Assembly (NCBI RefSeq): GCF_014196335.1
Contig: NZ_JACIDM010000002.1
Location: 186,001 to 250,000, forward strand
From: Brevundimonas lenta
Lineage (GTDB): Bacteria > Pseudomonadota > Alphaproteobacteria > Caulobacterales > Caulobacteraceae
Direction: 5' to 3'
DNA length: 64,000 nt
Every line of letters starts with the position of its first letter. The stretch's first letter is position 1. Shown piece by piece: positions 59,756 through 63,062 of this stretch. The notes beneath the pieces were generated by a model. The model ran no database searches. It saw nothing but the letters and a program-made list of their open reading frames with translations, and was not told where the DNA came from. A program made the position numbers and the translations under genes.

Positions 59756-60895
59756 ATGGACTTCGCCCTCACCGACGACCAGCGCGCCATCCAGGACGCC
59801 GCCCGCGCCTTCGCCGACGCCGAGCTGGCCCCGCACAGCGCCGAGTGGGACGAGACCAAACATTTCCCCGTCGACGTCATGCGCCACGCCGCCGAGATGG
59901 GCTTCTGCGGCATCTACACGGGCGAGGAGCACGGCGGCATGGCCCTGGGCCGCGTCGAGGCGGCGGTGATCTTCGAGGAGCTGTCGCGCGGCGACGTCTC
60001 CACGGCCGCATTCATCTCGATCCACAACATGGCCACCTGGATGATCGACCGGTTCGGCTCCGACGACCTGCGCGGCCGCTACGTCCCGTCGCTGGTGACC
60101 ATGGAGAAGATCGCCAGCTACTGCCTGACCGAGCCGGGCTCGGGCTCCGACGCGGCCGCCCTGCGCACGACCGCCAGGCTGGACGGCGACCACTACGTCC
60201 TGAACGGCTCCAAGGCCTTTATCTCTGGCGCCGGGACCTCGGACGTCTATGTCGTCATGGCCCGCACCGGCGTCGACGGCCCCAAGGGCATCTCGACCTT
60301 CGTGGTCGAGAAAGACACGCCGGGCCTCAGCTTCGGCGCCCAGGAGAAGAAGATGGGCTGGAACTCCCAGCCCACCGCCATCGTCAGCTTCGACGACTGC
60401 CGTATCCCGGCCGCCAACCTGCTGGGCAAGGAAGGCGACGGCTTCCGCTACGCCATGATGGGCCTCGACGGCGGCCGCCTGAACATCGCCGCCTGTTCGC
60501 TGGGCGGCGCCCGCCTCGCGCTCGAGGCCTCGCTGGAATACGTCAACACCCGCAAGCAGTTCGGCAAGCCGATCGCCGATTTCCAGAACACCCAGTTCAA
60601 GCTCGCCGACATGGCCACCCAGCTGGACGCCTGCCGCCTGATGGTGATGCGCGGCGCCTGGGCGATGGACACCAACCATCCCGAGAAGACCAAATGGTGC
60701 GCCATGGCCAAGCGCATGGCCACGGACATCTGCTTCCAGATCGCCGACGAGGCCCTGCAGCTGCACGGCGGCTACGGCTACCTCAAGGACTATCCGCTGG
60801 AGCGCATCGTCCGCGACCTGCGCGTCCACCGCATCCTCGAGGGCACCAACGAGATCATGCGCGTGATCACGGCGCGCGAGATGCTGCGGCAGTGA
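59756..60895 (+). CDS. Acyl-CoA dehydrogenase (isobutyryl-CoA dehydrogenase-like)
   Basis: 379 residues, FAD enzyme. N-terminal helical domain (DFALTDDQRAIQDAARAFADAELAP), middle domain with YCLTEPGSGSDAAALRTTA and KAFISGAGTSDVYVV, C-terminal domain with YVNTRKQFGKPIADFQNTQFKLADMA, QLHGGYGYLKDYPLERIVRD and the catalytic Glu in RILEGTNEIMR. GGGAG precedes the ATG. With the 3-hydroxyisobutyryl-CoA hydrolase-like gene at the window end it suggests valine degradation. Confidence 0.93.
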   Translation: MDFALTDDQRAIQDAARAFADAELAPHSAEWDETKHFPVDVMRHAAEMGFCGIYTGEEHGGMALGRVEAAVIFEELSRGDVSTAAFISIHNMATWMIDRFGSDDLRGRYVPSLVTMEKIASYCLTEPGSGSDAAALRTTARLDGDHYVLNGSKAFISGAGTSDVYVVMARTGVDGPKGISTFVVEKDTPGLSFGAQEKKMGWNSQPTAIVSFDDCRIPAANLLGKEGDGFRYAMMGLDGGRLNIAACSLGGARLALEASLEYVNTRKQFGKPIADFQNTQFKLADMATQLDACRLMVMRGAWAMDTNHPEKTKWCAMAKRMATDICFQIADEALQLHGGYGYLKDYPLERIVRDLRVHRILEGTNEIMRVITAREMLRQ

Positions 60896-60954
60896 GCGGG
60901 CATTGCGTCGCGGGCCGGCGGCGATAGGGTCCGGCAAGGTCCGGGGGATCGTTC

Positions 60955-61356
60955 ATGCTGCTCGTCACAATTCTGGCCGCGCTCGCCGTCCTCCCGCAGG
61001 CCGTTGAGGAGCGAGCGCCTCGCCACTGGGCGAACGGCGTCAACTGGTCGCGTATGCCGCGTCCGGACTACTCGCCTGACGAGGATAGCGTCGTCATGGC
61101 CCGGGTCACCTGCACCGTTGCGGACGGCGAGCGCCTGCAGGCTTGTCGGATAGACCGGCTGCTTCCCGAAGACACGAGGTTCGGCCGTCCGGTGCTGGTG
61201 AGCATCCGGCGAGCGCGCCTTGCCGAGGGGTGGGCGCTGCCCGGGGATACGGTGACGTTCGACATCTGGGCCTGCGGGGCGTCGGAGAGCCGACGCAACT
61301 GTCCCAAGCCTGACTGGCCGGACGCCGGCCTCACGAACGCCGCCACCCAACCGTAA
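60955..61356 (+). CDS. Small exported protein of unknown function
   Basis: 133 residues with a short N-terminal hydrophobic segment (MLLVTILAALAVLP). The body VMARVTCTVADGERLQACRIDRLLPEDTRFGRPVLVSIRRARLAEGWALPGDTVTFDIWACG has two to three Cys and a beta-alpha-beta look resembling a TonB C-terminal-like fold, but I cannot assign it. GGGGGA lies about seven bases before the ATG. It sits among branched-chain acyl-CoA genes without an obvious link. Confidence 0.7.
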   Translation: MLLVTILAALAVLPQAVEERAPRHWANGVNWSRMPRPDYSPDEDSVVMARVTCTVADGERLQACRIDRLLPEDTRFGRPVLVSIRRARLAEGWALPGDTVTFDIWACGASESRRNCPKPDWPDAGLTNAATQP

Positions 61357-61360
61357 CGGC

Positions 61361-61417
61361 CAAGGTGACGACACGCTGAAGGCGTGCCAACCTCTCAACC
61401 GGGAGGATCGTCACATG
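61361..61417 (+). repeat. Leader repeat, copy 1
   Basis: A 57-58-base segment that recurs at 61788 with about five changes. It begins near CAAGGTGACGACACG, contains the hairpin CACGC-TGAAG-GCGTG, and ends in CAACCTCTCAACCGGGAGG plus the ATG of the DUF6968-like gene. CCTC of the leader can pair with GAGG of the SD. Confidence 0.75.
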
Positions 61418-61774
61418 AACGGACCAGCGGCAGCCGCAAGGACCGAACCATCCGTCGCCTGCGAACGCCTGTTCCAGCTCGCGCTTCCCGCAGAGCCCCG
61501 ACCGTTCAGGGCCGTCTGGATGCAGCCGGTCCCCGACGGGAAAGACTGGGCCTGCGAATATGTGATCGAGTGGCCTCACCGGCCCTGGCGGCCCCGGCGT
61601 ATCAAGGGCGTGGATTCGGCGCAGGCGCTGCTTCTGGCCATGAAGATGGTGGCGAGCGAGCTCTACGGCGCCGACCCGCAGGTCTTCTGGTTTGAGCCTG
61701 ACGACACACTCGGTCTTCCGCTCGTACCTGAAGACGCCGACGAGGAAGCCGCTCGGACGAAGGGCCGGATCTGA
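61415..61774 (+). CDS. DUF6968-like small protein
   Basis: 119 residues, no signal peptide. The core LFQLALPAEPRPFRAVWMQPVPDGKDWACEYVIEWPHRPWRPRRIKGVDSAQALLLAMKMVASELYG has the W-C-Y-I...G-DS-QAL-LA pattern of DUF6968 (SF-associated small proteins). The acidic C-terminus (LVPEDADEEAA) is unstructured. It is preceded by the duplicated leader with GGGAGG about eight bases before the ATG. Family membership is recalled from pattern and moderately sure; function unknown. Confidence 0.65.
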   Translation: MNGPAAAARTEPSVACERLFQLALPAEPRPFRAVWMQPVPDGKDWACEYVIEWPHRPWRPRRIKGVDSAQALLLAMKMVASELYGADPQVFWFEPDDTLGLPLVPEDADEEAARTKGRI

Positions 61775-61787
61775 GGGATCCAACAGC

Positions 61788-61844
61788 CAGGGTGACGACA
61801 CGCTGAACGCGTGCCAACCTCTCAACCGGGAGGACCACCACATG
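61788..61844 (+). repeat. Leader repeat, copy 2
   Basis: Near-identical to 61361-61417: same GGTGACGACACG start, hairpin CACGC-TGAAC-GCGTG (stem kept, loop changed), same CCAACCTCTCAACCGGGAGGA block and ATG position. It precedes an unrelated exported protein. Confidence 0.75.
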
Positions 61845-62564
61845 AAAATGCTCGTCGCCGTCGCCGCCGCCACGCTGCTCGCCACCCCTGCGCTCGCCCA
61901 GGACCAGACCGAAATCAACGAGATCGTGGTCACCGGATCGCGCATGCAGAGGCCCTATGAGGTTGCGCCCCCGGTCGTGCCCGTAGTGACCGTCGCCCGG
62001 CGCGCCGACAATCTGATCGTGTCCATCTGGGCCGTGAACGACACGCGTGAGGCCGCCGGCCGTCGCGACGAACTCATGCGGACCCTGCGCAGCATGGCGC
62101 GGGCAGCCCAGAACGAGCCCGATATCGCCCTGAGCATCCAGGTGGATGGCCAACTGGTCGCCTTCAACGAGGACATGGTGTCCAGCCTGACGCTGGGTGT
62201 CGACGACGACCGCTCGGACACCAGCACCGCCAGCCTGATCGTCAAGACGCCGATCCGCCCCGGCGACACGCTCGACTCCGCCTCGGGACGGATCGTCCAG
62301 TTCGTCGCCCGGATCGACAAGGCCGGCCGGTCGCTGGTCAACATCAACGGCGGCTGGCAGCTGTCGATCGTCAATCCCGCCCAGTACCGGCCTGCGGTTG
62401 TCGAGGCGATCGCCGCGGACGCCAGGCGGACCACGGCGATGTTTGGGCCGGACTATGCGGTCGAGGTCGAGGGCATGGCCAACAACCTCACTTGGGTGCA
62501 GTCGGGCCCGCTCGATCTGGCGCTGTTCATTCCCTACAGCATGTCGGTGACGCCGAAGCCGTGA
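61842..62564 (+). CDS. Exported protein with TonB-box-like N-terminus
   Basis: 240 residues. Signal peptide MKMLVAVAAATLLATPALAQ. The mature start is DQTEINEIVVTGSRMQRPYE, which looks like the TonB box and linker of TonB-dependent receptors, yet no plug or barrel follows. The rest (VVTVARRADNLIVSIWAVNDTREAAGRRDELMRTLRSMARAA..., IVKTPIRPGDTLDSASGRIVQFVARID, PLDLALFIPYSMSV) is a mixed alpha/beta domain reminiscent of SIMPL/DUF541 proteins but not clearly so. SD GGGAGG within the shared leader. Function unknown; possible contact with TonB is inference. Confidence 0.75.
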   Translation: MKMLVAVAAATLLATPALAQDQTEINEIVVTGSRMQRPYEVAPPVVPVVTVARRADNLIVSIWAVNDTREAAGRRDELMRTLRSMARAAQNEPDIALSIQVDGQLVAFNEDMVSSLTLGVDDDRSDTSTASLIVKTPIRPGDTLDSASGRIVQFVARIDKAGRSLVNINGGWQLSIVNPAQYRPAVVEAIAADARRTTAMFGPDYAVEVEGMANNLTWVQSGPLDLALFIPYSMSVTPKP

Positions 62565-62575
62565 CGCGTCGGCCG

Positions 62576-62968
62576 CTACGGGGTCGGCGACGCGACGCCG
62601 ACCTCCGGCGCTCCGCCCAGGAAGGTCGCGCACCACGTCAGCGGGCGGCGCAGGCCTTCCGGCGGCATCCGCCCCGTCAGGCTCAGCCGGCAGTAGGCGC
62701 CCGCGGCCGGTCCCGTGTCCGACGGCGAGAACAGAACGACCGTCCTTGCGCCAGGCGACGACAGCATCCGCATCGGCACGCCGTTGTGGTTGATGTTGAA
62801 CAGGACGCCGTCGGCGGCTTGCGCGCCCAGCAGGCTGCGGGCCTGGCCCTCGCGGTCTCCCGGCTCCAGCCGGAACAGCTCGGCGTGGTACGCGTCGCCG
62901 GGCTCGGCCGTCATCGTGAACGCCGGATCGGCCGCCGCCGTCGCCAGGGCGATAAACAAATGGATCAT
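62576..62968 (-). CDS. Small exported protein of unknown function
   Basis: 130 residues. Start ATG 62968 has GGGGGAG about seven bases upstream and gives a short signal (MIHLFIALATAAADPAF). Mature part: MTAEPGDAYHAELFRLEPGDREGQARSLLGAQAADGVLFNINHNGVPMRMLSSPGARTVVLFSPSDTGPAAGAYCRLSLTGRMPPEGLRRPLTWCATFLG, with two Cys that may bond. No family recognised. It converges with the TonB-box protein gene. Confidence 0.65.
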   Translation of the reverse strand: MIHLFIALATAAADPAFTMTAEPGDAYHAELFRLEPGDREGQARSLLGAQAADGVLFNINHNGVPMRMLSSPGARTVVLFSPSDTGPAAGAYCRLSLTGRMPPEGLRRPLTWCATFLGGAPEVGVASPTP

Positions 62969-63062
62969 GAAGCGACTCCCCCACGGCCACGCTAGCCTGG
63001 GCGGCCAGGTCGCCACAAGCTGACGGCTGGACCCTTGGCGCGGGCCGCCGTATCAGCCCGGC

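Follow-up and report, generated by a model that had tools for sequence, protein, structure and literature searches.

Promoters recognised by RpoD (sigma73/sigma70) in Caulobacter are described, in passages of PMC8144410, by the consensus TTGaCgS and GCtANAWC, with 10–19 bp used between the two motifs. Passages of PMC4117421 give 349 of 863 Caulobacter operons as having alternative transcription start sites (TSSs), and 24.6% of C. crescentus genes as having a Shine-Dalgarno (SD) sequence. In a 64,000-nt stretch of Brevundimonas lenta DNA (contig NZ_JACIDM010000002.1, positions 186,001 to 250,000; "the window" below) we find a short direct repeat before two neighboring genes, and we consider it quite probable, judging from its layout, that what has been duplicated is a sigma70-type promoter together with an SD and a start codon. 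Like the RpoD promoters, this module has a −35-like GTGACG close to TTGACG, GC before its −10 element, a short predicted 5′ UTR, and 14 nt between the motifs, within the range used in PMC8144410. It departs from them in that its −10 element, CAACCT, matches weakly and its TSS is a predicted one. It also resembles the internal promoters of Caulobacter operons, as the gene that it precedes may be a later member of an operon, but here the promoter, SD and ATG are present in copy at a neighboring gene, and the operon structure itself is putative. The element is not described in the best-ranked titles and abstract openings of a literature search, and passages of PMC3616915 and PMC8450116 leave this interpretation unaltered.

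The direct repeat is 65 nt long, and its copies (61355..61419 and 61782..61846, both on the plus strand) are 91% identical at a spacing of 427 nt and end at two start codons. Ungapped identity between the copies is at background level upstream of the repeat and fades downstream within the first codons. The initial sequence-only reading of this DNA, which had described a leader about 90% identical through the ATG before two genes, was thus accurate. Copy 1 precedes a gene for a 119-aa DUF6968 protein (61415..61774, plus strand; PF22302, E 2.6e-18), and copy 2 precedes a gene for a 240-aa exported protein with a TonB-box-like motif (61842..62564, plus strand) that has orthologues in genomes of the genus and the family. 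Pfam returned no family above its cut-off for the 240-aa protein, so that the two products differ in family, in keeping with the earlier statement that they are not paralogous. Up to the ATG the copies differ at six positions, all found before the −35, at mid-spacer or in the gap that separates the SD from the ATG; the −35, the TGC, the −10, the SD and the ATG are identical in both. A search of the host genome for further copies, which had been proposed as a check, was run by BLASTN (3.36 Mb, 6 contigs); it returned copy 1 itself (E 1.7e-28) and copy 2 (E 6.3e-20), and nothing further better than E 0.055. Twelve more short matches in the same genome were read by eye and are mostly coding-like; one of them is an SD region (L007) and two are ambiguous (L004, L005).

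Both copies read GTGACG-N17-CAACCT directly before the SD, a sigma70-like arrangement. In copy 1 the alignment and leader scan described below place a −35-like GTGACG at 61365..61370, a 17-nt spacer at 61371..61387, which contains CACGC/GCGTG and ends in TGC as in an extended −10, and a −10-like CAACCT at 61388..61393, whose CCT is part of a CCTC able to pair with the SD; the SD, GGGAGG, is at 61401..61406 in the sequence. The corresponding plus-strand positions in copy 2 are 61792..61797, 61798..61814, 61815..61820 and 61828..61833. We suggest that RNA polymerase would recognise GTGACG as the −35 and TGC-CAACCT as an extended −10, 17 nt apart, and from the distance to the −10 box we infer that transcription starts near 61397..61401 at copy 1 and near 61824..61828 at copy 2, both on the plus strand. 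The resulting 5′ UTRs would be roughly 14–18 nt long, beginning at or just before the SD. In both copies GTGACG agrees with TTGACG at 5 of 6 positions, whereas CAACCT agrees with TATAAT at only 2 of 6, a weak match in which the A at −11 and the T at −7 are kept and TGC precedes; GCCAACCT agrees with GCTANAWC at 3 of the 7 specified positions. A generic sigma70 scan of 60880–62700 found no promoter (0.1 expected). A looser promoter-plus-SD pattern has three matches in the window (0.52 expected), one of them elsewhere than the two copies, and in the whole genome such a pattern, chosen once the copies had been seen, occurs at seven places against one for a backward control. Four of the five genomic places besides the copies look coding-like by eye; the fifth, L177, stands before the ATG of a possible exported protein and may share the layout of the module.

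Strong matches to the module occur in two of 131 genomes of the genus, the host and Brevundimonas sp. Root1279 (G121), and 16 more genomes hold one weak match each (E 0.01–0.05). Root1279 has a single copy, found only before its orthologue of the exported-protein gene (75% identical). Over a 43-nt core that starts with GTGACG and ends with GGAGGA, Root1279 is identical to copy 1 at 43 of 43 positions and to copy 2 at 42 of 43. The four-fold degenerate sites of the neighboring genes agree with Root1279 at 69 of 112 in the exported-protein gene and, in the genes that flank the locus, which we take to encode an acyl-CoA dehydrogenase and an enoyl-CoA hydratase/HIBCH-like protein, at 130 of 162 and 135 of 173, respectively (62–80% overall). 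As the identity of the core is well above that of the four-fold sites, we consider the module to be constrained. This bears on whether the repeat could be a product of chance, or what is left of a mobile element or of a repeat family, a notion suggested by the fact that the DUF6968 gene is flanked by direct repeats. We regard it as very improbable, given the conservation in Root1279, the genomic count of just two copies (E below 0.05), and the restriction of strong matches to those two genomes. Furthermore, BLASTN at distant settings with 61355–61847 gave no match in plasmids or phages, and an exact 20-nt core had no match in viral contigs; in a genome contig collection the same core occurs at two places, one in Root1279 (NZ_LMEB01000004.1) and one in an uncultured bacterium, where the DNA around it looks coding. 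A protein search of that collection found no relatives. In the more distant orthologue leader of G151, GTGACG, the 17-nt spacing, CGTGC, CAACCT and CGGGAGGA are retained, and the middle of the spacer and the gap between −10 and SD differ.

The layout was also examined in a wider set of 46 leaders, taken across the family from orthologues or paralogues of the 240-aa gene and drawn from 47 places of which one, at a contig end (G307), was left out, with start codons chosen by a script. In most Brevundimonas orthologues of the 240-aa gene, a −35 of the form nTGAC(G/A), usually 17 nt of spacer and a −10 ending in T are found just before the SD; recurrent combinations outside the genus are TGGACG with CAAGCT and GTGACG with TAGCGT. 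When 13 Brevundimonas orthologue leaders were aligned with copy 1 by MAFFT, L029–L031 being left out, 11 of the 14 rows had no gap in the 28 columns that begin with TGAC and end with the final T of the −10, while the −10 hexamer itself varied (CAACCT, TGATCT, TGACCT, CATAGT, AATAGT, CTTAAT). The best promoter-like match ends 17–31 nt before the ATG in 33 of 41 non-redundant leaders (mean 14.7 and maximum 23 in 300 shuffled sets), the mean promoter score of these leaders is 9.11 (shuffle maximum 8.02), and nTGACn or nGGACn stands at the −35 in 25 of the 41 (shuffle maximum 10). As the score is our own, with ad hoc weights set once examples had been seen, and orthologous leaders are related rather than independent, these figures indicate strength and are not formal probabilities. 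Best matches have a 17-nt spacer in 30 of the 46 leaders, a spacing that the score itself favors. Compared with its own shuffles at the 5% level, the leader comes out ahead in 8 of 16 Brevundimonas cases and 11 of 30 others. L029–L031 and several leaders of other genera lack the pattern, and the register that the script chose in L022 is a different one (18 nt, GATCTT). Some leaders carry features of their own. In L018 (G042) and L022 (G154), upstream of the exported-protein gene, the putative −10 TGATCT is spanned by inverted repeats (GAACGGC/GCCGTTC and GTTCCG/CGGAAC) that stop just short of the SD; the stems are not the same, and the enclosed TGCTGATCT is common to both. L129 (G271) belongs to two tandem exported-protein paralogues, both of which have TTGACG as well as an SD region reading GCGCCGGGAGGA.

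The stem CACGC/GCGTG, which the sequence-only reading had rightly described as kept while its loop changes (one loop base differs, G to C), occupies the spacer that separates the −35 from the −10, and the CCTC overlaps the −10 box. The stem could be read at the level of DNA, as a near-palindrome CACGC-N5-GCGTG that serves as a repressor or activator site common to both genes. Its position between the −35 and the −10 would fit such an operator, and the dyad is the same in copy 1 and Root1279 with only its center changed in copy 2. However, it is only partly kept in G151, eight further Brevundimonas leaders retain 1–3 of its 5 pairs while their promoter-like layout remains, and no further genomic match is better than the E value of 0.055 given above. 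We therefore hold an operator to be distinctly unlikely.

The same bases could instead act in RNA, and the sequence-only reading had suggested a thermometer-like or protein-binding leader. Two kinds of known system are relevant here, namely RNA thermometers of the ROSE/fourU type and the IS10 type, in which hairpins in read-through RNA hide the ribosome site of the transposase. As in the thermometers, the SD of the module lies in a predicted stem: the folds computed for the two 60-nt leaders pair the SD (−24.4 and −19.2 kcal/mol, with z −3.5 and −2.2), in agreement with the earlier remark that CCTC can pair with GAGG of the SD, and the SD is predicted to be unpaired with a probability of only 0.01 in read-through RNA. 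An SD-hiding stem is possible in G000, Root1279 and G151; the Root1279 leader folds similarly (z −1.6), and in four aligned leaders, G151 included, 36 of 36 cells of two stems pair, against 33–59% for slid partners. If a folded 5′ UTR of this kind hid the SD and responded to temperature, a ligand or a protein, it would control translation of both genes. Against it, none of the pairs in the four leaders has changed on both sides and two have a one-sided change, a comparison of low power with only four sequences, and the eight Brevundimonas leaders that keep 1–3 of the 5 spacer pairs have no CCTC within the stretch examined. Mean SD accessibility is near that of shuffles (0.33 against 0.42 in 16 Brevundimonas leaders, 0.33 against 0.35 in 30 others), although in 8 of the 46 leaders the SD is occluded more than in 95% of its own shuffles, where about 2 would be expected. 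The pairing potential of CCTC and GAGG is ordinary in the window, since CCTC-N4..16-GAGG-N4..12-ATG occurs seven times against 6.0 expected from shuffles. In the window as a whole the one Rfam match is a tRNA away from the leaders; a search restricted to 61000–62300 hit two eukaryotic families by chance (E 1.1 and 8.1), both times outside the leaders. The predicted TSSs fall downstream of the hairpin, a position that had been named beforehand as speaking against control by RNA, and the pairing strand is expected upstream of the TSS, unlike in the thermometers. Taken with the loss of the stems in most of the orthologue leaders listed, the suggestion of a regulatory leader fits poorly, and we judge it quite improbable.

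We also considered a three-way-junction RNA (P1/P2/P3) and rejected it; it did well on three to four similar leaders, showed no two-sided changes and was lost in the wider set. In the genus, a covariance model matched 43 of the 131 genomes (E≤1), with G151 (E 0.04) behind weak matches in G160 and G139, and in the family 39 of 390 genomes matched at E≤0.1, at 40 places of which four were already known. Twenty-five of the 40 places, leaving out the 11 weakest, were read by eye; many are coding-like and some lie before the starts of possible exported proteins. At two places, L147 (G358) and L165 (G185), a possible SD lies in a strong CCTCCC/GGGAGG stem; in L147 the stem follows GGTGACG and GTGCTATCCT, again a promoter-like arrangement.

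A compromise between promoter and RNA can be imagined along the lines of IS10. The SD has its complement in the −10 box (the CCT of CAACCT and the C after it), so that RNA started locally might be translatable, lacking the pairing strand, while read-through from the dehydrogenase operon would fold and hide the SD; the module would then insulate the accessory genes, the DUF6968 copy included, from that read-through. Unlike IS10, the module is without a transposase, and its hairpin is not kept across orthologues. A clean switch is disfavored because the local transcript is itself predicted not to be wide open: in RNA folded in isolation from the predicted TSS, the SD is mostly paired with coding sequence (unpaired 0.06–0.27). 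The idea is kept alive by the excess of leaders with an occluded SD and by the 17 of 41 leaders that have CCTC or CTCC before the SD, a marginal excess (shuffle mean 12.4; 7 of 300 sets as high) that also favors a regulatory leader. We consider the insulation unlikely on present grounds.

We favor the duplicated promoter and SD, and the gene content of the locus suggests how it may have arisen. Orthologues of the 240-aa protein are found in 16 of 131 genus genomes (E≤1e-50) and 44 of 390 family genomes (E≤1e-12), the host included in both counts. The protein has a signal-peptide-like N-terminus and a motif E(I/L)(V/I)VT(G/A)(S/T)R conserved in six aligned proteins, and we presume that it is of the kind called "TonB-box exported". 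The native owner of the module would be this gene, and the DUF6968 gene would hold a copy in the present lineage; the alternative that the sequence-only reading had offered, copying of a 5′ region, accords with the promoter, SD and ATG found before DUF6968. In other Brevundimonas, the start codon of a dehydrogenase-adjacent DUF6968 gene overlaps the stop codon of the dehydrogenase gene (GTGA or ATGA) in seven of eight cases, the exception being L042. Root1279 has a 100-aa ORF, without a Pfam match, that starts likewise. In the window this coupling is absent because a gene for a 133-aa protein (60955..61356, plus strand) lies between the acyl-CoA dehydrogenase gene and the DUF6968 gene. The five closest homologues of the 133-aa gene (L064–L068) stand directly after the dehydrogenase gene in their own genomes. 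We infer both the order of events and that the module copy restored expression of DUF6968.

The 133-aa protein has no Pfam match; residues about 26–91 are weakly similar to many longer ORFs in the genus, and presumably it may be related to the TonB C-terminal domain. The slot between the dehydrogenase and HIBCH-like genes (60896–63062) differs in content among Brevundimonas, which have the exported-protein gene, DUF6968, the 133-aa gene or mixtures of these; that of the window holds all three small genes and a minus-strand ORF (62576–62968).

We point out that, in GC-rich Caulobacterales, a weak −10 that overlaps CCTC beside a GGGAGG SD gives rise to SD-hiding hairpins that are convincing and probably irrelevant, which calls for caution. 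Most likely the present case is a small and fairly ordinary one, in which a gene was given a copy of its neighbor's on-switch. A copied piece of 65 nt can provide an accessory gene with a promoter, an SD and an ATG of its own where coupling to the preceding gene is lost, and the recipient sits here in a gene slot whose cargo differs between species.
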